A stretch of DNA of 51,520 nucleotides from Candidatus Uhrbacteria bacterium (GTDB taxonomy: Bacteria > Patescibacteriota > Patescibacteriia > 2-12-FULL-60-25), in NCBI GenBank assembly GCA_030649995.1, contig JAUSEV010000011.1, forward strand, positions 1 through 51,520. Direction: 5' to 3'. The translations under genes were made by a program, and so were the position numbers. The notes under the pieces were generated by a model. That model was not told the DNA's origin, did no database searches, and worked only from the letters and a program-made list of their open reading frames with translations. Positions 5,460-50,699 of the stretch are shown here, piece by piece. Each line of letters starts with the position of its first letter. Positions within the stretch are counted from its first letter, which is position 1.

Positions 5460-5969
5460 ATGCCCCCCCAACCCCCAGAACTGAAAGAAGCGCTTGCTTT
5501 GAGTCAGGAGCAATTTGTGTGGGAAGCGCCGATACGCCTTCACTACGAACGAGGTCCGCGCTGGTATCTGTTCATGGCCGTGATCGCGCTTCTTTTTGTC
5601 GCGTATGCCGTCGCGACCGCGAATTTTTATTTCGCCTTCATCATTCTTTTGGCGTCGATTATTCTGATCCTGACCGGCAACGAACCTTCTAAACAGGTGT
5701 TAATCCAGATCGGCGAACATGGTCTGGTGCGTGATGGCAAGCTCTACCTCTATCAAGATTTAACTCAATTCGCCATCATCTATCATCCGCCCTTCATCAA
5801 GGTTCTTTATATCGATCATCGCAATCCCCTGATCCCACGCCTGCGCATCCATTTGGAAGATCAAAATCCGGTTGAACTGCGCGAATACTTAAAACAATTC
5901 ATTCGCGAGGATCTGGACTTGCAAGACGAACATCTTTCCGATATGATCGGGCGGCTGCTTAAGATATAG
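5460..5969 (+). CDS. Two-helix membrane protein, unknown function
   Basis: I chose the ATG at 5460 because the upstream frame lies inside the repeat. The product has 169 residues: a soluble acidic N-terminus, two adjacent membrane helices (about residues 36-75, with a short turn), then a soluble C-terminal half with alternating hydrophobic beta-like segments (VLIQIGEHGLV, KLYLYQDL, IKVLYIDH). The layout resembles small membrane proteins with a cytoplasmic PH-like domain, but I cannot name a family. The stop TAG merges into the first unit of the 7-bp array at 5969. No neighbours suggest a pathway. Confidence 0.7.
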   Translation: MPPQPPELKEALALSQEQFVWEAPIRLHYERGPRWYLFMAVIALLFVAYAVATANFYFAFIILLASIILILTGNEPSKQVLIQIGEHGLVRDGKLYLYQDLTQFAIIYHPPFIKVLYIDHRNPLIPRLRIHLEDQNPVELREYLKQFIREDLDLQDEHLSDMIGRLLKI

Positions 5970-6004
5970 GTTACGGGTTACAGGTGACAGGTTACAGGTG
6001 ACAG
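5969..6004. repeat. Left arm of 7-bp-period array flanking S23 gene 1
   Basis: Units GGTTACG, GGTTACA, GGTGACA, GGTTACA, GGTGACA. It begins at the stop codon of the preceding gene and ends two bases before the S23 start. The reverse-complement arm is at 6401-6442. Confidence 0.85.
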
Positions 6005-6005
6005 A

Positions 6006-6374
6006 ATGGCTATGGAGATAAAGTCATTTAGGGAGTTGATTGTCTGGCAAAAAGCGATGGAATTGGCGAAGCAAATCTATAACATCACTTCGCTTTTTCC
6101 ATCGTTCGACCAATTTGGGCTGGCGAACCAGATGAGAAGATCCGCTGTATCTATTCCTTCAAACATTGCTGAAGGCAAGCAAAGAAAAACAAAAAATGAT
6201 TATCTGCATTTTTTAAGGATGGCATACGGATCCGCCGCTGAACTTGAAACGCAAATTCTTTTATCCAAGGACATTCACTCATCTTTGGATTATGTGGATG
6301 CGGAGGCGGCTGTCATCGAAATACAAAAAATGCTGAATGTCCTGATTCAGCACTTAGAAAATCCTCATTCTTAA
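6006..6374 (+). CDS. Four-helix-bundle protein, S23 family
   Basis: The 122-residue protein fits the S23/four-helix-bundle family first seen inside intervening sequences of 23S rRNA; it is related in fold to the Avd accessory protein of diversity-generating retroelements. Diagnostic stretches are FRELIVWQKAMELA, FGLANQMRRSAVSIPSNIAEG and the LRMAYGSAAELETQ helix. The family is thought to bind nucleic acid, and no enzymatic role is known. The gene lies between two inverted arms of a 7-bp-period array (5969-6004 and 6401-6442). A second family member at 34183 has the same arrangement. An alternative start is the ATG at 6012. Confidence 0.93.
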   Translation: MAMEIKSFRELIVWQKAMELAKQIYNITSLFPSFDQFGLANQMRRSAVSIPSNIAEGKQRKTKNDYLHFLRMAYGSAAELETQILLSKDIHSSLDYVDAEAAVIEIQKMLNVLIQHLENPHS

Positions 6375-6400: not shown

Positions 6401-6442
6401 ATTACCCGTAAGCTGTAACCCGTCACCTGTAAGCTAGTTACT
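6401..6442. repeat. Right arm of 7-bp-period array flanking S23 gene 1
   Basis: Units read CGTAAGC, TGTAACC, CGTCACC, TGTAAGC, the reverse complement of the arm at 5969-6004. It lies between a TATAAT (6386-6391) and tRNA-Arg. Confidence 0.8.
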
Positions 6443-20030: not shown

Positions 20031-20052
20031 AAGTGATGAGAAGCTCTAGAGA

Positions 20053-20127
20053 TTAGACATTAGTCATTAGACATTAGTAATTAGTCGGCCGAATGTCTAA
20101 TGACTAATGTCTAATTACTGATTACTC
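20053..20127. repeat. Inverted 7-bp-period array between virB4 and the next gene
   Basis: Left arm words ATTAGAC, ATTAGTC, ATTAGAC, ATTAGTA, ATTAGTC; centre CGGCCG; right arm ATGTCTA, ATGACTA, ATGTCTA, ATTACTG. Bases 20053-20076 and 20093-20116 are exact complements (24 bp). The right arm reaches into the virB4 stop codon. Confidence 0.9.
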
Positions 20128-22019
20128 CCCACCGACTGACTTTCCTCAAATTCTTTCTTTGCCGCTTCGATTTTTAGGAGCTGTTCCGGATTGGTCGTGA
20201 CGATTTGATCCTCGGTCATCGAGGCTACCACTTGAATGGCCGCGTGTTTGGAACCGGCAAAGAAAATTCCCTCTCCGATTCCCGATTCGAGCAAGAGGTA
20301 TTTTTCGTATTGCGTCAAAAGAAACGTTCTGGCAACAAGATCAATCGAGGCCGGCGATTGTTTGAGCAAGAGTTGAAGCGCGCTGTTCGTGACAATCGCT
20401 TGCCCATAAGGTGACGTTAAAAAGTCGTTCACATCTTGCGTAATCGTCGTAATCCCAAGATAGTATTTTCGGCAGCGCTTGACCAGAGCAAAAATAAATT
20501 TGGCCGAATCCTCCGATTGCATGAGCCACCAAGCCTCGTCGATAACGAGGATACGCTTTTTTCGTTCCGAACGCACCACATTCCAAATATAATTGATGAT
20601 GCTGTAAATGGCGATGGGGCGCAGCTCGTCTTCCAGATCACGCACGGAAAACACCACGAGTTGATTTTTTACCTGCACGGTTGTCGGAGAATTTAAGAGG
20701 CCGGAAAACGTTCCTTCGGTAAATTTTTTCAGTTTGACGACCAGTTCCGCCGTTCCCTCCATGCCTTCCAAAATATCTTGAAAATCCTTCATGGTCGGCG
20801 GTTCGACCGCGGCCAAATCCACCCCGGGAACAATGTCTTTTTTCGCGTATGTTTCGAGAAGTGCTCGATCAAGCAGAGAATCTTCCGCCGTCGTGACTTT
20901 GCCCAACATGAGTCGCAACATGCCTTTGACGGTGATCACGGCGCTGCGAATGATGTCTTCCACGGCAAACGCCTCTCCGGTCGGCCGCGGCAAATCAAAC
21001 GGATTGATTTTTGCGTGTGAAGCCAACGAAATGCTGATGTAGGTTCCGCCCACGGCATCGGAAAGATGCTTATATTCCATTTCGGGATCAATCACCATCA
21101 CATCCACCCCTAACATCATGGAACGTAAAATTTCCAATTTGACCGTATAGCTCTTGCCGGCGCCGGAGGTCGCAAAAATAACCGCGTTGGCGTTTTGCAA
21201 GGAAAAACGGTCGAACAAAATCAGGGAATTGTTGTGCTTGTTGACCCCGTACAAAATCCCGTTGTCGCTCGTGAGTTCGGCGGAGGTAAAAGGAAACGAC
21301 GACGCGATGGGAGAGGTGCTCATGTTAAAAGTGATCTGTAACTCATCATTTCCAACGGGCAACGTGGAGTTAAATCCTTGCTCGGCTTGAAAGTACGCCC
21401 GACGCGTATAAATCAACATCGAAGCGAATGTTCCCTCGACCGTTGACGTCACCCGTTCCAAATCTTCTTTGTTCGTGGAATAAAATGTGCAATAAAAAGC
21501 GAACTGGAAAAAATGTTCAATGCCTTGAGTCAAATCATCGCGCAATTGTTCGATGTCGCGCAACGCCGTTTCGGAAATGGGATCTCGCGGTTTGCCGCCC
21601 TCGGAATCGGAAGAAATTTGCGCCTGCAAAATACCGACTTTTTTCTTGAGTTGCTTTAAAATAATTTCCGCCTTGATCGGATAAAAAAACATCGCCATAT
21701 CAAGCTCGGCGCTCAAATTGATAATGGGGGAAGCCCAACCCACCGTCACATAGCGTGGATAGGTGACGACGAATAAGGTGCGACAATAGGTGTCTCCCAA
21801 ACGCACGAACGAAGGTTCAACCTTCATGGCGGCCGGAGCGATCAGATCCTTAATAGTCGCGACCCCTTTGCGATAGACACGCTCTTCTTCCAGAGCGATT
21901 TTTTGCTCCTCTTGTTCCTGCTTGATCTGTACGCGAGACGGCCCACGCTCCAAAGACACCCCGCCAGCGGTGATCATGGAAGCATCAAATTCTTTATGTG
22001 AGTCTTGTTCAAAAGCCAT
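20115..22019 (-). CDS. VirB4-like T4SS ATPase
   Basis: VirB4 ATPases energise type IV secretion and pilus assembly at the inner membrane. The 634-residue protein has an N-terminal interaction region (to about 250), Walker A ATSGAGKSYTVK, a VIDPEMEYKHL segment, Walker B RILVIDEAWWLM and the downstream TITQDVNDFL motif. Compared with classical VirB4 (about 800 residues) the N-terminus is short, and a separate upstream gene (22103) resembles that missing domain. The stop codon lies inside the adjacent repeat. Identification as a VirB4/TraC-type ATPase is secure; direction of transport is not. Confidence 0.92.
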   Translation of the reverse strand: MAFEQDSHKEFDASMITAGGVSLERGPSRVQIKQEQEEQKIALEEERVYRKGVATIKDLIAPAAMKVEPSFVRLGDTYCRTLFVVTYPRYVTVGWASPIINLSAELDMAMFFYPIKAEIILKQLKKKVGILQAQISSDSEGGKPRDPISETALRDIEQLRDDLTQGIEHFFQFAFYCTFYSTNKEDLERVTSTVEGTFASMLIYTRRAYFQAEQGFNSTLPVGNDELQITFNMSTSPIASSFPFTSAELTSDNGILYGVNKHNNSLILFDRFSLQNANAVIFATSGAGKSYTVKLEILRSMMLGVDVMVIDPEMEYKHLSDAVGGTYISISLASHAKINPFDLPRPTGEAFAVEDIIRSAVITVKGMLRLMLGKVTTAEDSLLDRALLETYAKKDIVPGVDLAAVEPPTMKDFQDILEGMEGTAELVVKLKKFTEGTFSGLLNSPTTVQVKNQLVVFSVRDLEDELRPIAIYSIINYIWNVVRSERKKRILVIDEAWWLMQSEDSAKFIFALVKRCRKYYLGITTITQDVNDFLTSPYGQAIVTNSALQLLLKQSPASIDLVARTFLLTQYEKYLLLESGIGEGIFFAGSKHAAIQVVASMTEDQIVTTNPEQLLKIEAAKKEFEESQSVGSNQ

Positions 22020-22023
22020 ATAT

Positions 22024-22093
22024 TTTAGTCATTAGACATTGGTCATTAGACATTCGGCCGACTAATTACTAATAACTAATGTCTAATGACTGG
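22024..22093. repeat. Inverted 7-bp-period array upstream of virB4
   Basis: Same word family as at 20053 (ATTAGAC, ATTGGTC) with the CGGCCG centre and a right arm of ACTAATT, ACTAATA, ACTAATG. Bases 22027-22040 pair with 22078-22091. Confidence 0.88.
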
Positions 22094-22102
22094 TCCTATT
22101 TC

Positions 22103-22786
22103 TTAGGTGGGTTCTAATTGTATCTGCGCCATCTCCGCCAATTTTTGCGTTTGGAACATTTCCGGATTATAGACCGTGTAGAAAAGCTCGATCAGACTTT
22201 GCGTATCCAGTTGTACGGCATTCAACGACATGGAGGACAATCCGGAAACGATTTGATTGACACGGATACTCAAATCAAATTTTTGCTTTTGAAATCGTTC
22301 CTCTCCCAAATGGACGGTTAGTTTTGGCGACAGAACTTCCGCTAACCGTTGAAAAAAACCTTTTTGCTTGTCCGTGGCCGGATTCCATGGCACGACCACA
22401 AAAAAACGCTTCTGCATAATGTCTCCCAAATCAATCAATTGTTTGACGTAGTCGCGATAATTGCTGATTTGACGCTTCAGAAGCTCATTCGTGAGAGTCT
22501 TTTCATTTTCCTTGAGTTGATTGAGGTACCCGTCAATGTTCATCCGTCTGGATTGAATCACGATCTGGATCGGAAAATCCAAACTGTTTAAAAACTCCAT
22601 ATACGCTTGCACAATCGCGTTTTGTTCATCAACCGATTTCAAAGCAAAATTAATGCTGGAAACCAAAAGAACCGCGCGCAAAGTCCCGTCTTTCATGATA
22701 ACCGAATCTTCACGGATTTCCGCGATATCAAGAAATTTTTGGGATGGAACCCCAAGTTTTGATCCTGAAAGTTTTTTCGATTGCAT
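22103..22786 (-). CDS. TraC/VirB4 N-terminal-domain-like protein
   Basis: The 227-residue protein begins with LDIAEIREDSVIMKDGTLRAVLLVSSINF, a pattern seen at the start of TraC-type T4SS ATPases, and includes the QIVIQSRRMNIDGYL and KRFFVVVPW segments. It has no P-loop. It precedes virB4, so the two appear to be a split ATPase: this part would dock at the membrane complex and the next provide ATP hydrolysis. Two 7-bp arrays flank it. The family link is by pattern only. Confidence 0.75.
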   Translation of the reverse strand: MQSKKLSGSKLGVPSQKFLDIAEIREDSVIMKDGTLRAVLLVSSINFALKSVDEQNAIVQAYMEFLNSLDFPIQIVIQSRRMNIDGYLNQLKENEKTLTNELLKRQISNYRDYVKQLIDLGDIMQKRFFVVVPWNPATDKQKGFFQRLAEVLSPKLTVHLGEERFQKQKFDLSIRVNQIVSGLSSMSLNAVQLDTQSLIELFYTVYNPEMFQTQKLAEMAQIQLEPT

Positions 22787-22793
22787 AATGAAA

Positions 22794-22945
22794 GGCTCTA
22801 GGCGTTAGGCTTTAGGCTTTAGGCTTTAGGCGTTAGGCTTTAGGCGTTAGGCTTTAGCTAATGCCTAGTGCCTAGTGCCTAGCGCCTAGCGCCTAGTGCC
22901 TAACGCCTAGCGCCTAGTGCCTAACGCCTAGCGCCTAGTGCCTAA
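22794..22945. repeat. Long inverted array of 7-bp units
   Basis: Nine units of GGCNYTA on the left (GGCTCTA, GGCGTTA, GGCTTTA repeated; 22794-22856), a four-base loop, then twelve units of TARYGCC on the right (TAGTGCC, TAGCGCC, TAACGCC; 22866-22942). The period is exact throughout. The right arm ends in the stop codon of the PrgI gene. The two arms use different sets of variant bases, so they diverged or were built independently. Confidence 0.95.
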
Positions 22946-23376
22946 CTCTCCTCCGGATTATACACCCCTCCCGTGTTTACCGTGAGTGCCATGTCTCGCA
23001 AGTGACTTGAGGTTGGCGGCGGCTTGATGATGACCGGCGGAGGTGGCACGACTTTTTTTAAAGCGATATACAGTCGTAATTCGGCATCCGCGAGATCTTT
23101 GTGCCAAACACGCAACGGCGGACGGAGCGAGGTTTGGAGAAAATTGACGAAAAAAATGTGGAATGGTTGGCCGTTGATTTTGAGAAAAGAAAAAACTGAC
23201 GCAACAGCCGCCGTGAGAACGCCGATCACCACAAAATACCCGAAACGAAACAGTTTATATTCGATGAAGATGATAAAAACCGCCGCCAACATGACCAAAA
23301 ATTGACGCACGGTAATAGGCCCGAGAATCTTATCCTCCGTGTCAATAAATTGTGGAACAACAAATTTTTCGGGCAT
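22942..23376 (-). CDS. PrgI-family T4SS membrane protein
   Basis: PrgI-like proteins are small inner-membrane components of Gram-positive-type T4SS, roughly equivalent to VirB3. The N-terminus FVVPQFIDTEDKILGPITVRQFLVML is the family signature, followed by two membrane helices (about 28-65) and a soluble tail with a proline run (PPPPVIIKPPP). Length is 144 residues. It lies between the 534-residue gene and the TraC-like gene. Its stop codon TAG is formed by the first unit of the 7-bp array. Confidence 0.88.
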   Translation of the reverse strand: MPEKFVVPQFIDTEDKILGPITVRQFLVMLAAVFIIFIEYKLFRFGYFVVIGVLTAAVASVFSFLKINGQPFHIFFVNFLQTSLRPPLRVWHKDLADAELRLYIALKKVVPPPPVIIKPPPTSSHLRDMALTVNTGGVYNPEES

Positions 23377-23386
23377 ATTTATTTGG

Positions 23387-23450
23387 GAAGTAATGAGTAA
23401 TGAGTAATGAGGGTTGGACGCATTACGCGTTACGCATTACTCATTACTTC
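23387..23450. repeat. Inverted 7-bp-period array upstream of prgI-like gene
   Basis: Left arm GTAATGA three times, centre GGGTTGGAC, right arm GCATTAC, GCGTTAC, GCATTAC, TCATTAC. Bases 23387-23402 are exactly complementary to 23435-23450. Confidence 0.9.
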
Positions 23451-23451
23451 A

Positions 23452-25056
23452 TTAAAAGTGTATCTGACTGTTTAACTGAACCAGCGCGGCGATTTCTTCT
23501 GGAGAAATGAAGCTTGGATCTTGCGCGCGGCGCTCCGCAACAAGCGCGGCCACAGGCTTACCGGTCGCAAAACTTTCTGACACCAACTTGAGATATTGCT
23601 GCTGCATGGGCGAACGATGCCAGGCCTCGATCCCTTCGGTCCAATGTTCAAACGATTCCTGCTTCAACGTCTCAAATTTTTGTTTTATTTTCTCCACAGC
23701 CGTCTCCGGCGTTTTGGCCAAGCGACGGAACTCGGCCACACCCATCCCCCCAATCTCCTCCGTGAGTCCCGTGAGCCTGACCGGGGGTGGTTGTACTCCA
23801 TCAATGGTCGTCCCCCCTAATGACTTATGACTAATGTCTAATGTCTGATCTTTCCCGCCTGTCCCCGCCTTCATCGCTGCGACCACCTGATCATGCGCGG
23901 CAGCCAACGGATTGATCCCCTGCACCTTTTCTTGAAACCACTTAGCGTGCTCCTCGCTCTCGCGTTTTTTGCGTTCTTCGATTTTCTTCTGTTGCTCGAT
24001 CGCGGTCGCCTCGATCTGCCCGCGTTCCTCCGCCTCGATTTTTTGATGATTCTCCTGATAAAACTTTTCGATCACCGGCGCGATACGATCCGCTTCTTCG
24101 CTCGAAAGCCCCATCCCGCCAACTTGCGGCGCCCGACTCAAAACCGCCTTGGTATCCATGGCGTTACGCACATCTCGCAACCGCGTAGAAATAAGGTTGC
24201 GCAACCGTTTTGTCATGTACTCATCCAACCCGCTTAATCCGATTTGACCCACAGCCGCATCAATCGCCTCATCTTGAGAAAACGTAACATGCGCCGGCGC
24301 CATAAGCTTATTCGCCACATGCCCCGCAATCTCCGCCTCTTCCGGATTGGCTGACGTTTCGATCGTATCTCTTATTTCTTTTTTCGTATTTCCTTCTTGT
24401 TCGATCTTATTCAACCACTCCGCGTATTCCTGTTCAGGCATCACTTGAGTGGAAGCGAGAAAATCCGTCATCGCTTTGCCGAAAGCCTCTGCTTGCTCGC
24501 GACTAAAACCCAATCCCCCATCCCCTTGCCTGCGTTGAACGGTTTCCTTGACCTGCTCGATCGTACGCACGCCTTTGATAGAGGAAATCAACACCTCGCG
24601 CAAACGACGAACCATTTCTTCCGAAAGCAAATGAATTTTTGCGAGCGCGGCGATTCGTCGAGTGGCTGCTCCATAAGAAGCGGGACGCAAAGACACGCGA
24701 AACGCGCTTTGAATATCGGCGAGTGGCACTCCCAGTTCTTGCAAACGTCCTTCCACGTTCCAGGAAATAAGATCGGCGAGCGGAAGAATGACGTGAAACA
24801 GAACCGCCTTTTCAACGTCCTCGGGTTTGCGATCTCCGGCAAGACGACGCAATCGCTCGCGGCAATCCTCTTTTGACAAACCCGCGAACACCGTATCCCA
24901 AACCACATCCATCACCCGATCCCACGCGTCATTGTCGTAGGCGAGTTGGGCTTGAGCGTCATCTTCGTTCTTACTGGCTCGATCGCGATCAATGAGATAT
25001 TCCTGCACCACGGTTGGAGCCGCTTCATAATATTTTAACCAAGTATCGCGATCCAT
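23452..25056 (-). CDS. T4SS-operon-associated helical protein, unknown function
   Basis: A 534-residue, mostly helical soluble protein with no signal or membrane segment, located between the VirB6-like gene and the PrgI gene. A motif recurs: GGLGFSREQAEAFGKAM, GGMGLSSEEADRIAPVI and GGMGVAEFRRLAKT, each before a helix, suggesting an internally repeated domain. A charged coiled coil (about 350-385) follows the second. Around residues 406-418 the peptide DQTLDISHKSLGG is encoded by a 7-bp-period array inside the gene (23817-23851). I know no named family. A cytoplasmic partner of the secretion channel is inferred from position. Confidence 0.72.
   Translation of the reverse strand: MDRDTWLKYYEAAPTVVQEYLIDRDRASKNEDDAQAQLAYDNDAWDRVMDVVWDTVFAGLSKEDCRERLRRLAGDRKPEDVEKAVLFHVILPLADLISWNVEGRLQELGVPLADIQSAFRVSLRPASYGAATRRIAALAKIHLLSEEMVRRLREVLISSIKGVRTIEQVKETVQRRQGDGGLGFSREQAEAFGKAMTDFLASTQVMPEQEYAEWLNKIEQEGNTKKEIRDTIETSANPEEAEIAGHVANKLMAPAHVTFSQDEAIDAAVGQIGLSGLDEYMTKRLRNLISTRLRDVRNAMDTKAVLSRAPQVGGMGLSSEEADRIAPVIEKFYQENHQKIEAEERGQIEATAIEQQKKIEERKKRESEEHAKWFQEKVQGINPLAAAHDQVVAAMKAGTGGKDQTLDISHKSLGGTTIDGVQPPPVRLTGLTEEIGGMGVAEFRRLAKTPETAVEKIKQKFETLKQESFEHWTEGIEAWHRSPMQQQYLKLVSESFATGKPVAALVAERRAQDPSFISPEEIAALVQLNSQIHF
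23817..23851. repeat. 7-bp-period array inside a coding sequence
   Basis: Units CTAATGA, CTTATGA, CTAATGT, CTAATGT, CTGATCT, translated on the minus strand as part of the 534-residue protein's linker. It is the same word family as the intergenic arrays at 20053, 22024, 29831 and 34101. Confidence 0.8.
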
Positions 25057-29823: not shown

Positions 29824-29830
29824 TAAAAAA

Positions 29831-29899
29831 GTCATTAGACATTAGTCATTAGACATTCGGCCAGACTAATTACTAATGACTAATGTCTAATGACTAATC
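29831..29899. repeat. Inverted 7-bp-period array between LCP gene and der
   Basis: Words GTCATTAG/ACATTAGTC on the left, CGGCCA centre, ACTAATT, ACTAATG, TCTAATG on the right. Bases 29831-29850 are exactly complementary to 29875-29894. Confidence 0.9.
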
Positions 29900-34100: not shown

Positions 34101-34133
34101 AGACATTGGTAATTAGTCATTAGACATTAGTCT
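34101..34133. repeat. Left arm of 7-bp-period array flanking S23 gene 2
   Basis: Words AGACATTGGTA, ATTAGTC, ATTAGAC, ATTAGTC. Its complement lies after the S23 gene at 34546-34580. Confidence 0.85.
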
Positions 34134-34182: not shown

Positions 34183-34560
34183 ATGACTAAAGTTGAGAAA
34201 TATACGGATCTTGAAACATGGAAGAGAGCTCATTGGTTCACTATTGAAATTTATAAAATGACGAAACTCTTTCCGAAAGAAGAACGCTTCGGGTTAACGG
34301 ATCAGTCACGACGATCAGCAAGCTCAATCGGTGCGAATATCGCCGAAGGATTCGGAAGGTATCACTTTAAGGATAAAAACAAATTCTATTATCAAGCTCG
34401 CGGATCCCTTTTTGAAATTCAAAATCATTTGCACCTTGCCAAGGATCTTTCATGTATCTCCCAAAAAGAATTCGATACTCTCTTTCTCGAATCCCAAGAT
34501 CTCGGACGCTTAATAAATGGGCTCATTAGATCAACCGGCATCGTTCGGCCTAATGTCTAA
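34183..34560 (+). CDS. Four-helix-bundle protein, S23 family (second copy)
   Basis: A 125-residue member of the same family as the gene at 6006, but clearly divergent in sequence: DLETWKRAHWFTIEIYKMT, FGLTDQSRRSASSIGANIAEG, then the third helix YYQARGSLFEIQNHL. I start at ATG 34183; a TTG further up is unlikely. The last codons and the stop (RPNV*) are formed by the right arm of the 7-bp-period array. The two arms enclose the gene exactly as at 6006. dprA follows. Confidence 0.92.
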   Translation: MTKVEKYTDLETWKRAHWFTIEIYKMTKLFPKEERFGLTDQSRRSASSIGANIAEGFGRYHFKDKNKFYYQARGSLFEIQNHLHLAKDLSCISQKEFDTLFLESQDLGRLINGLIRSTGIVRPNV

Positions 34561-34580
34561 TGACAAATGTCTAATGTCTG
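34546..34580. repeat. Right arm of 7-bp-period array flanking S23 gene 2
   Basis: CGGCC followed by TAATGTC, TAATGAC, AAATGTC, TAATGTC. The CGGCC is the half that forms the centre of empty arrays at 20053, 22024 and 29831. It encodes the C-terminus of the S23 protein and could be mistaken for the start of dprA. Confidence 0.85.
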
Positions 34581-36002: not shown

Positions 36003-36019
36003 TGTTTCATCGTCAATCA

Positions 36020-36049
36020 TTGCCAATTTCAGAAATATAATGCTATAAC
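36020..36049 (+). promoter_or_regulatory. Promoter of topA
   Basis: TTGCCA (36020-36025), 18-base spacer, TATAAC (36044-36049) with an upstream TGC, making an extended -10. A second TATAAT lies at 36036. Confidence 0.5.
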
Positions 36050-36097
36050 ATCTTTCATTCTCCCATGGCATCATCCATCTATTCGTATTTTTGTCTT

Positions 36098-36130
36098 CAC
36101 TACTCATTACGCATTACTCATTACGCATAC
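36098..36130. repeat. 7-bp-period array before topA
   Basis: CACTACT, CATTACG, CATTACT, CATTACG, CATAC: a single arm in the topA leader, with no inverted partner. It uses the same words as 23387-23450. Confidence 0.7.
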
Positions 36131-36138
36131 CAGCCTCT

Positions 36139-38706
36139 ATGCATCTCGTTATCGTTGAATCTCCCACCAAAGCCAAAACCATTCGAAAATTTTTAGGGTC
36201 TGACTACACGGTCATCGCCTCCATGGGTCATGTCCGCGATCTGCCTGATTCTTCAACGGAGATCCCCGCGGCATTTAAGGACGCGAAATGGGCAAACTTA
36301 GGAGTGGATGTGGAACATGATTTTACGCCGTTATATGTGGTACCAAAAAAGAAAACCAAAATCATGAGCGAACTCAAGGCCGCGCTCAAAACAGCCGAGG
36401 ACGTGTATCTGGCGACTGACGAAGATCGCGAGGGCGAGAGCATCAGCTGGCATCTGTTGGAACTTTTGAAGCCAAAAGTTCCTGTCCATCGCATGGTGTT
36501 CCACGAAATCACCAAACACGCGATCGAAGAAGCTCTTAAACATCCTCGCGAACTTGACGAGCGACTGGTACGCGCGCAAGAAACGCGGCGCGTTCTTGAT
36601 CGTTTGGTGGGATACACGATTTCACCGGTGTTGTGGAAAAAAATCGCTTATGGATTGTCCGCGGGTCGCGTGCAATCAGCGGCCTTAAAAGCGATTGTTG
36701 ATCGGGAACGCTTGCGCATGTTGTTTGTAAAAGCGGATTATTGGGACGTCAGTGCCGCATTGGAAACATCAAACAACAAAGATCAAGCATCAAAATTTGG
36801 AGCGAAGCTCGTGGAAACAAACGGCAAACGCCTTGCCACAGGAAAAGATTTTGATGAACAGACCGGCAAACTTTCAAGTGGAAAAAATTTGATCTTGCTC
36901 GATAAAAGCGCCGCAGAAAAAATTGCAAAAGAAGCGGAAACCGGCTCATGGAAAGTGATCGAGGTCACGGAAAAACCGTTTACTCGTCGTCCCTCCCCTC
37001 CTTTTATTACTTCGACGTTGCAACAAGAAGCCAATCGCAAGTTAGGTTTGTCGTCCAAAGACGCGATGCGTGTGGCACAATCGTTGTACGAACAGGGACA
37101 CATCACCTACATGCGTACAGATTCCGTGACGTTATCGCAAGATGCCATTGCCGCGGCTCGACAGTCTGTGATCAAGCGTTTTGGAAAAGAGTATGTTCCA
37201 GAAACATCGCGACAATACGCGAACAAATCCAAAGGCGCGCAAGAGGCGCACGAAGCCATCCGACCGAGCTTGACGTTTGCTTCGCCGGATGAAATCGGAC
37301 TCTCCGGAGCGGAACGAGCCGTGTATGAATTGATCTGGATGCGCACGTTAGCTTCACAAATGATGGACAGCAAACAATTACAAATTTCCGTAAGCCTGCA
37401 AGTCGCGAGCCACGTCTTTTCCGCGACCGGCATACGCATCCTCTTTCCGGGTTTTCTGCGCGCTTATGCCGAAAGCGCGGCGGATGAAAGCGAACAAGCG
37501 TTGGAAGACATGGAGCGGCCATTGCCAGACTTGAAGGCGGGTGATACGCCACGCTGCGAAGAAACCAAAGCGGAAGGCCACACCACCAAACCGCCCGGAC
37601 GCTTTACCGAAGCCGGCTTGATTCAATTTATGGAAAAGGAAGGAATCGGTCGCCCAAGCACTTACGCGTCAATCGTGAGTACCCTGCTTGATCGCGGCTA
37701 TGTGCGCAAAGTGAGCAACGCGCTCGTTCCCACCTTTACCGCGCTCGCCGTGACGCAGGTCATGGAAGGACACTTTCCAAATTTGGTGGATGTAAAATTC
37801 ACCTCAACCATGGAAGAATCTTTGGACAACATCGCCGAAGGCAAGGAAGAATCCCTCCCCTACCTTCGGTCGTTCTATCTCGGTGAACAAGGTTTGGAAA
37901 ATAAAATTAAAACGGAGGTCGAAAACATTGATCCGGAAGAGGCGCGTAAAGTCGTTATTCCAAAACTTCATGATGTAACGATTCGCGTGGGAAAATTCGG
38001 TCCGTACTTCGAGGCCATCCATCCAAAAAGCCAACAACTGACAAAAGCTTCCATTCCGGAAGACGTGTCGCCTTCTGATTTTACTCAAGAAGTGGCGATG
38101 GAAATCTTGAATCAGGCGCAGCAAGGTCCAACGTCTTTGGGCGAGGATCCGGCAACGGGAAAAACGATTTTTTTGAAAACAGGAAGCTATGGACCCTACC
38201 TGCAATTGGGCGAGGATCAACCGGAAGGATCAAAAATAAAACCCAAACGCGTGAGCGTGCCAAAACAGATTCCTCTGAACACTCTTGACCATCAAAAAGC
38301 CGCAGTCTTGATCTCTCTGCCGCGTCTTTTAGGCACACATCCGGAAACGACAAAAGAAGTACGCGCCGGTTTGGGAAAGTTTGGACCGTATGTTGTCCAT
38401 GATGGCGATTTTCGATCGCTGAAAGCGCCGGATGACGTGCTGACGGTTGATCTCGCGCGCGCGTTGGAATTATTGGCGATGCCGAAAGGAGCTCGAAGAG
38501 GAGCCGCCACGCTCAAAACGCTTGGCGAACATCCAAAAGATAAAAAAATGATCACTCTTCATCAGGGAAAGTACGGCTTGTACGTTAAACACGGCGCAAC
38601 AAACGCAACGTTGCCAAAAGACTTGAAACCGGATGACCTTACGCTGGAACAAGCACTTGAATTGTTAGCGGCGCGAAAGACCAATAAAAAAACAAAAAAG
38701 AAATAA
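36139..38706 (+). CDS. topA: DNA topoisomerase I
   Basis: TopA relaxes negative supercoils. I start at ATG 36139 (855 residues): the Toprim domain begins HLVIVESPTKAKTI, with TDEDREGE as the acidic metal site; the catalytic tyrosine lies in GHITYMRTDSV. The C-terminus has no zinc fingers but four repeats of the Toprim_C type (KFGPYFEAI, SYGPYLQLG, KFGPYVVHD, KYGLYVKHG), as in several bacterial lineages. About residues 210-218 (TSNNKDQAS) are encoded by a 7-bp-period array (36766-36793). It converges with the ATPase gene. Confidence 0.97.
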   Translation: MHLVIVESPTKAKTIRKFLGSDYTVIASMGHVRDLPDSSTEIPAAFKDAKWANLGVDVEHDFTPLYVVPKKKTKIMSELKAALKTAEDVYLATDEDREGESISWHLLELLKPKVPVHRMVFHEITKHAIEEALKHPRELDERLVRAQETRRVLDRLVGYTISPVLWKKIAYGLSAGRVQSAALKAIVDRERLRMLFVKADYWDVSAALETSNNKDQASKFGAKLVETNGKRLATGKDFDEQTGKLSSGKNLILLDKSAAEKIAKEAETGSWKVIEVTEKPFTRRPSPPFITSTLQQEANRKLGLSSKDAMRVAQSLYEQGHITYMRTDSVTLSQDAIAAARQSVIKRFGKEYVPETSRQYANKSKGAQEAHEAIRPSLTFASPDEIGLSGAERAVYELIWMRTLASQMMDSKQLQISVSLQVASHVFSATGIRILFPGFLRAYAESAADESEQALEDMERPLPDLKAGDTPRCEETKAEGHTTKPPGRFTEAGLIQFMEKEGIGRPSTYASIVSTLLDRGYVRKVSNALVPTFTALAVTQVMEGHFPNLVDVKFTSTMEESLDNIAEGKEESLPYLRSFYLGEQGLENKIKTEVENIDPEEARKVVIPKLHDVTIRVGKFGPYFEAIHPKSQQLTKASIPEDVSPSDFTQEVAMEILNQAQQGPTSLGEDPATGKTIFLKTGSYGPYLQLGEDQPEGSKIKPKRVSVPKQIPLNTLDHQKAAVLISLPRLLGTHPETTKEVRAGLGKFGPYVVHDGDFRSLKAPDDVLTVDLARALELLAMPKGARRGAATLKTLGEHPKDKKMITLHQGKYGLYVKHGATNATLPKDLKPDDLTLEQALELLAARKTNKKTKKK
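36766..36793. repeat. 7-bp-period array inside topA
   Basis: ACATCAA, ACAACAA, AGATCAA, GCATCAA: four units of seven in frame within topA, in a variable loop of the protein. Confidence 0.5.
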
Positions 38707-50443: not shown

Positions 50444-50530
50444 TGGTGGGCAGAGAGGGGGTCGAACCCTCATGACCTTTCGGTCGCAGGATTTTGAGTC
50501 CTGTGCGTCTGCCAGTTCCGCCATCCGCCC
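50444..50530 (-). tRNA. tRNA-Leu (anticodon CAA)
   Basis: Minus strand: acceptor GGGCGGA/TCTGCCC, anticodon stem CAGGA/TCCTG with loop CTCAAAA (anticodon CAA), long variable arm CGACCGAAAGGTCATG, T arm GAGGG/CCCTC, encoded CCA. It reads TTG. Confidence 0.95.
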
Positions 50531-50536
50531 GAGTGG

Positions 50537-50570
50537 GATGAATCATGAATTATGAATCATGAATCGTCAA
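50537..50570 (-). promoter_or_regulatory. tRNA-Leu promoter built on a 7-bp-period array
   Basis: The array is ATGAATC, ATGAATT, ATGAATC, ATGAATC. On the minus strand TTGACG (50570-50565) with a 17-base spacer gives CATGAT (50547-50542), so the repeat supplies the spacer and -10 box. Confidence 0.4.
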
Positions 50571-50575
50571 GCCAT

Positions 50576-50604
50576 TTGACAGGAATGATGAATCGCTCTA
50601 TCAT
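50576..50604 (+). promoter_or_regulatory. Promoter of initiator tRNA
   Basis: TTGACA (50576-50581), 17-base spacer, TATCAT (50599-50604), 20 bases before the tRNA. Confidence 0.7.
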
Positions 50605-50624
50605 CAGCAAACACAAATTAATAT

Positions 50625-50699
50625 CGCGGGGTAGAGCAGCGGCAGCTCGCCAGGCCCATAACCTGGAGGTCGCCGGTTCAAATCCGGCCCCCGCAACCA
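50625..50699 (+). tRNA. Initiator tRNA-fMet (anticodon CAT)
   Basis: Acceptor CGCGGGG with C1 opposite A72 (unpaired), the mark of bacterial initiators; anticodon loop CCCATAA (CAT), T arm GCCGG/CCGGC, encoded CCA. The anticodon stem is CCAGG/CCTGG, so only two of the three usual G-C pairs next to the loop are kept. Confidence 0.95.

Follow-up and report, generated by a model that had tools for sequence, protein, structure and literature searches.

Inverted arrays of 7-bp units at gene junctions in a Candidatus Uhrbacteria genome and its relatives

Results

Period-7 arrays in the window

The arrays of 7-bp units that lie between genes of Candidatus Uhrbacteria have the appearance of a rapidly changing, REP-like repeat class with a strict module of 7 bases, because close relatives have either no arrays or arrays of other words at the same places. 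The reading that we prefer, to which we assign a probability of about one half, is that these are REP-like dispersed palindromes with arms of heptad modules around a family-specific centre, which would have been copied within the genome, would be kept as RNA hairpins adjacent to stop codons and would be read by a heptad-binding protein. The source genome (G000) is a 1.08-Mb, 99% complete MAG of an uncultured member of the Patescibacteria, and one of its contigs, a stretch of 51,520 nt, is referred to here as the window.

A period scan of the window found 14 period-7 segments (score at least 12), and Tandem Repeats Finder gives the same loci; the other periods between 5 and 13 yield 0–2 segments each. 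First-order Markov shuffles of the window and shuffles of its intergenic sequence contain no period-7 segment, and second-order Markov shuffles contain 0.03 on average and never more than 1 (n=100). A sequence-only reading of this DNA had listed at least ten such loci at gene boundaries; every one of them is recovered, their boundary position is confirmed, and the concern that the pattern might be no commoner than in shuffled intergenic sequence is answered by the counts (14 compared with ~0). An Rfam scan of the window returned tRNAs only. Apart from the clearest element, which is described below, the loci are as follows.

5969..6004, + strand: single GGTTACA/GGTGACA array that fills a stop-to-start gap (Tandem Repeats Finder, period scan)
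6404..6432, − strand: TGTAACC words in inverted orientation beyond ORF 6006-6374, immediately upstream of a tRNA gene (Tandem Repeats Finder, period scan)
20047..20126, + strand: compact inverted element of the ATTAG family, centre CGGCCG (RNA z −8.5)
22025..22091, − strand: compact inverted element of the ATTAG family in the opposite orientation, centre CGGCCG (RNA z −5.4)
23389..23448, + strand: compact inverted element, word GTAATGN (RNA z −8.9)
23817..23849, − strand: ATTAG-word array inside predicted gene 23452-25056 (period scan)
29830..29898, − strand: compact inverted element of the ATTAG family at the junction of a LytR-family gene and a der-type GTPase gene (RNA z −11.7)
34101..34130, + strand: ATTAG-family half element to the left of ORF 34183-34560 (Tandem Repeats Finder, period scan)
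34550..34579, − strand: ATTAG-family half element after a centre-like CGGCC, to the right of ORF 34183-34560 (Tandem Repeats Finder, period scan)
36097..36128, − strand: single GTAATGM array before the gene at 36139 (period scan)
50538..50565, + strand: single ATGAATC array amid two divergent tRNA genes (50447-50696) (period scan)

The description of these loci as mostly two inverted arms is right for five compact pairs (20047, 22025, 22793, 23389 and 29830) and not for the rest, in which the arms are single or flank an ORF: the pairs 5969/6404 and 34101/34550 each enclose an entire ORF, and the arms at 36097 and 50538 stand alone. That the word varies while period and architecture persist is borne out, with several words per genome on one architecture. 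The array at 23817-23849, within a predicted gene, is an addition to the earlier list; one frame through it stays open although the word contains TAG. ORF 34183-34560 lies between its two ATTAG half elements as though an element had been split around a gene, and ORF 6006-6374 is likewise enclosed by GGTTACA/TGTAACC arms.

The clearest element lies within an operon that encodes PrgI and VirB4/TraG-type proteins.

22793..22857, + strand: left arm, nine TAGGC-NY heptamers (Tandem Repeats Finder, period 7, 9.3 copies)
22858..22944, − strand: right arm, twelve TAGGC-NY heptamers, inverted (Tandem Repeats Finder, 11.7 units at 22863-22944)
22942..23376, − strand: PrgI-family (type IV secretion) gene upstream of the element (PF12666, E 3.7e-7)
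22103..22786, − strand: next operon gene after the element, no match in Pfam
20115..22019, − strand: VirB4/TraG-type ATPase (PF19044, E 1.3e-25)

The unit counts agree with the nine left and twelve right units read earlier, and the variant bases do differ by arm (TAGGC followed by TT or GT on the left, by AC, GC or GT on the right). The arms are ~80% complementary and the predicted folded RNA of 22793-22944 has an energy of −94.4 kcal/mol (z −9.7). The outer end of the right arm holds the stop codon of the PrgI-like gene, whose C-terminus is intact relative to its relatives, and the next gene has its start codon 6 bp beyond the element and an N-terminus that is conserved in relatives.

Abundance among genomes

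The genome scan that the sequence-only reading had proposed gives 133 period-7 arrays in 614 kb of G000, where each of the other periods from 5 to 12 gives 1–10. A second Uhrbacteria genome (G015) has 71 in 433 kb, with 0–16 at other periods; period and placement are as in G000 and the words are different. The upper figure in G015 reflects 16 period-9 arrays, a secondary excess absent at other periods. Two members of the same genus as G000 (G001 and G002) have 10 period-7 arrays each in ~170–195 kb, most sampled family members have zero in up to 20 kb, and period-7 arrays are present in approximately 22 of 80 named VirB4 neighbourhoods, with words that differ from genome to genome. In the G000 sample, 32 arrays fall outside called gaps, mostly within called genes, and more than half of array loci are without a compact partner arm. 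Thirteen of the 20 early stretches were picked for the TAGGC word, which is therefore over-sampled; later stretches were not so picked. Our literature search found no paper on such repeats in Patescibacteria.

Placement between stop and start codons

Placement was evaluated on gene calls from a home-made simple codon-usage caller. Arrays in codirectional gaps begin a median of 3.5 nt past the stop codon and finish 10 nt ahead of the next start, and when the array is removed the residual gap has a median of 25 bp compared with 224 bp expected from random intergenic placement (lowest of 2000 simulations, 138.5 bp). Of the compact inverted arrays that occupy codirectional gaps, all 17 in G000 and 9 of 11 in G015 are no more than 15 nt from the stop codon upstream. 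By gap type, the compact inverted arrays of G000 are distributed as 17 codirectional, one convergent and two divergent.

Long stems at gene ends might be taken for intrinsic transcription terminators decorated by repeats, but TTTT occurs within 15 nt after an inverted element in only 1/17 (G000) and 0/11 (G015) cases, which is no commoner than in array-free gaps (47/334 and 29/236), and the elements are depleted between convergent genes. Terminator-like sites in the region are no commoner than in shuffles, and none overlaps an element. The rarity of T-runs together with the codirectional placement thus argues that these are not intrinsic terminators, an identity that we regard as hardly credible and rejected on the missing U-tract and the lack of placement at convergent genes. 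Two accounts of word choice were also discarded. Stop-codon supply is raised in the arms of G000 and not in those of G015, and copying of words between neighbouring gaps is not seen in G000 (P 0.36) and is only weak in G015 (P 0.008).

Gain, turnover and dispersed families

Comparison of orthologous gaps, also suggested by the sequence-only reading, indicates rapid change: 12 of 13 orthologous junctions in G001 and G002 are without an array and one holds an array of another word, so the arrays are not fixed and identical in relatives. The G000 gap less the array span differs from the congener gap by a median of +5 bp across these 13 junctions. The junction that holds the 23389..23448 element is only 1–2 bp in congeners, and the one with the 29830..29898 element has a GTAACTA array instead in G002. 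The VirB4/TraG-type ATPase served as the orthology anchor (37 of 38 genomes searched); in most relatives the type IV secretion junctions overlap or span 2–18 bp, and both neighbouring proteins end and begin at the same places. Heptamer arrays, mostly inverted and of different words, occupy such junctions in G000, G013, G015, G030 and G035, the one in G013 having been read by eye below the detection threshold.

Several groups of elements have more in common than their word. Seven elements of the ATTAG family align on the asymmetric centre AGTAATTAGTCTGGCCGAATGTC with unrelated flanks (alignment A1), two TAGGC elements (L012 and L018) have ~60 bp in common while standing in opposite orientation in their loci, two GTAATG elements have the common centre AGCCATTCAGATC, and G015 has a family of its own with 14 aligned copies and the centre ACAAGAGTTGCTTAGTTGCTCTTG (alignment A3). 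The shared asymmetric centres point to copying, by which at least the ATTAG, TAGGC, GTAATG and G015 families appear to have arisen. None of 40 other family genomes contains the ATTAG centre or a four-unit TAGGC array, the G015 centre occurs in 0/8 congeners and has no exact match in viral contigs, and several families are, judged by these searches, private to one species. Most single-arm arrays may have grown in place, because most show no dispersed centre. Of the three mechanisms that had been considered at the outset, a mobile element thus gains support from asymmetric centres common to unrelated loci, templated addition finds no support, and slippage alone does not account for the position-specific constraint, the shared centres or the placement beside stop codons. 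The unit GTTAGGC resembles a core word of integron attC sites, but attC sites were rejected, since the remaining words show no such likeness and the arms come in the opposite order.

Heptad modules and constraint

The units follow patterns in which some positions are nearly invariant and one is free (TAGGC-N-Y, GTAATG-N, GAATTA-N and TT-N-TTAA); these arrays were picked by core match, which inflates the constraint for cores containing N, and cores without N also show one free position. When no word is preset, changes cluster in one column above the array's own null in 56/67 arrays of G000 and 33/34 of G015. The free column is common to both arms at 13 of 18 loci in G000 (3.9 expected) and at 7 of 12 in G015 (2.6 expected). 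That both arms leave the same single position free and keep the rest constrained argues against slippage alone.

In a fuller version of that mechanism, the polymerase would slip locally, with a preference for 7 nt, and fold-back template switching would then give the second arm; the resulting arrays would be neutral and survive only where genes tolerate them. According to work cited in PMC4679880, the long simple repeats of many bacteria are most often heptamers, for which polymerase slippage has been proposed. In agreement with this, units of GAAT-type arrays become less similar with distance, the right arm of one element (L012:11156-11275) has a six-unit (42-bp) higher-order duplication inside its heptamer array, and none of 38 genomes has a match above the cut-off for SbcD, a component of a nuclease that cleaves palindromes. 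We nevertheless consider this mechanism unlikely, since it does not predict the 25-bp residual gap, the free column common to both arms or the several families with identical asymmetric centres at unrelated loci, and the identity of TAGGC units does not fall with distance.

Nor are the arms mutual copies at their variable positions. The two arms of an element have no common unit strings there beyond shuffles, variable-position strings common to different loci are not above unit shuffles, and in G000 own arms pair no better than the arms of other loci; in G015 they pair weakly better (permutation P 0.035, each element being entered in both orientations). A recent inverted duplication in which one arm derives from the other was rejected on the lack of common unit strings and the G000 pairing result. 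Copying of units, if it acted alone, would be expected to make the free position uniform as well, and selection for pairing, if it acted alone, would not be expected to leave that position free; recognition of the sequence of each heptad would fit both the free and the constrained positions.

Predicted RNA structure

The compact inverted elements form predicted RNA hairpins that are very stable relative to shuffles (z −5 to −12) and have no U-tract, whereas single-arm loci are not unusually stable (z −2.3 for 5970-6005 and z +0.5 for 36003-36138). In 4 of the 14 G015 copies (A3), a C-G pair is replaced by A-U at one and the same position of three units in each arm, all at once, and another column is free and is unpaired in approximately half of cells. 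In this alignment 22 cells are changed on both sides compared with 10 in shuffles, although the copies are related and the cells are not independent; covariation in the ATTAG elements is not above shuffles.

These results bear on the notion that selection at operon junctions, for translation insulation or mRNA processing, shaped the elements in place as RNA hairpins, with heptamers as cheap raw material and no mobility. The stability of the hairpins, their position right after stop codons with depletion in convergent gaps, and the A3 covariation are all as this notion would have it, yet the majority of array loci are without a compact partner arm, the free column is often unpaired, the ATTAG elements do not covary and the shared centres imply copying. 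On balance we judge selection in place without mobility to be distinctly improbable.

Candidate machinery

No candidate for a mobilising enzyme was found. In particular, a Y1 transposase (PF01797) is absent from G000, which is 99% complete, and from G012, and Y1 transposases are present in G015 (one PF01797), G030, G031 and G033. Mobilisation by a Y1 transposase, in a classical REP/RAYT system or one of IS200-derived MITEs, would explain dispersed extragenic palindromes with family-specific sequences, and the enzymes in those four genomes are compatible with it. Such a system is very doubtful and had already been weakened: besides the absences in G000 and G012, the ATTAG elements (A1) have no conserved unpaired tag alongside, and the elements are 60–170 bp long with heptad arms and not 20–40 bp. 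We therefore rejected REP/RAYT, there being neither a Y1 transposase in G000 nor a tag. Reverse transcriptase was rejected as a driver, its gene presence not tracking the array-rich genomes. The absence of SbcD may permit palindromes; loss of SbcCD was rejected as a switch, as SbcD is without a match in all 38 genomes and does not discriminate between them.

Discussion

In the reading that we prefer, REP-like palindromes with heptad arms, the elements would spread within a genome by copying and would later gain, lose and mutate units. Their persistence at stop-to-start junctions could reflect a hairpin after the stop codon that alters ribosome release, re-initiation or mRNA decay, perhaps as with REPs in E. 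coli. The constant 7-bp module with its free base could reflect a hypothetical protein that places one protomer on each heptad and whose word specificity would turn over between species, comparable to heptad-binding ribbon-helix-helix (RHH) proteins. A broader proposal, possible and offered tentatively, is that these are a new class of selfish or regulatory element of Patescibacteria, consisting of a core and heptad arms read by a hypothetical protein, in which core, word and presumably protein would be replaced from species to species while the period, the architecture and the stop-to-start site persist.

Contrary to what the sequence-only reading had implied, intergenic heptamer arrays do have a precedent. 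Rehm et al. (2015) described intergenic heptamer repeats of GGGAATC in Xanthomonas and GGGGA(C/T)T in Nostoc, with ~70 inverted pairs in Xanthomonas (PMC4692102). The Uhrbacteria arrays resemble these in their 7-bp tandem units with fixed and free positions, their intergenic excess, their proximity to the upstream ORF and, for Xanthomonas, their inverted pairs. The Xanthomonas and Nostoc repeats use one G-rich word per genome, with 83% in the same gene context in two species (PMC4692102), whereas in Uhrbacteria a genome has many words, families have centres in common, and the positions are private to one species. MacGregor (2015) described TAACTGA heptamer repeats in marine Beggiatoaceae (PMC4679880), which are likewise short arrays at gene junctions and for which a translational role has been proposed; unlike the Uhrbacteria arrays they comprise a single word, are almost all direct repeats and lie just upstream of start codons.

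The likeness to REPs and BIMEs is one of distribution. Both are dispersed, multi-copy, extragenic and multi-family, and occur at gene ends and between operon genes, and some REPs are found no farther than 15 nt from a stop codon (PMC12306157, PMC3733652), from where they stall ribosomes in E. coli (PMC12306157). REPs are compact palindromes of 20–40 bp without heptads, and a GTAG or CGTC tag marks the large REP super-families (PMC3733652), whereas the Uhrbacteria palindromes have arms of heptad arrays, G000 has no Y1/RAYT gene, and neither A1 nor A3 has conserved columns outside the palindrome that could be a GTAG or CGTC tag. As for MITEs, there are dispersed copies and empty orthologous sites; the ancestral gaps are too short for target-site duplications to be legible in them, and no candidate source transposase emerged. 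The Uhrbacteria elements thus combine known traits, yet they have no REP tag and, unlike the heptamer repeats described before, are not conserved as one word.

Earlier reports of heptamer repeats, from unrelated bacteria, came without a mechanism, and REP-like elements had been described without heptads; the Uhrbacteria genomes join both. Congeners differ through fast turnover, and the elements sit where REPs are known to affect translation. This provides a natural comparative experiment in which the same operon junction is empty, filled, or filled with another word, and comparison could test both why period 7 recurs and what role long hairpins have between operon genes in tiny reduced genomes.

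A parallel for the heptad module is found in the RHH protein Omega/ParB, which binds contiguous 7-bp parS repeats, direct or inverted, on plasmid pSM19035 (PMC9499535). The Uhrbacteria arrays, like parS, consist of contiguous non-palindromic 7-bp repeats with fixed positions and free flanking ones, in direct or inverted order. The plasmid system has a single consensus (WATCACW) at six promoter-region sites on one plasmid, whereas the Uhrbacteria arrays have many words and lie on the chromosome between operon genes. The free position of TAGGC-N-Y in G000 is A, G or T and never C in 139 units; a C there would make GGCC, and its absence is a possible sign of site avoidance.
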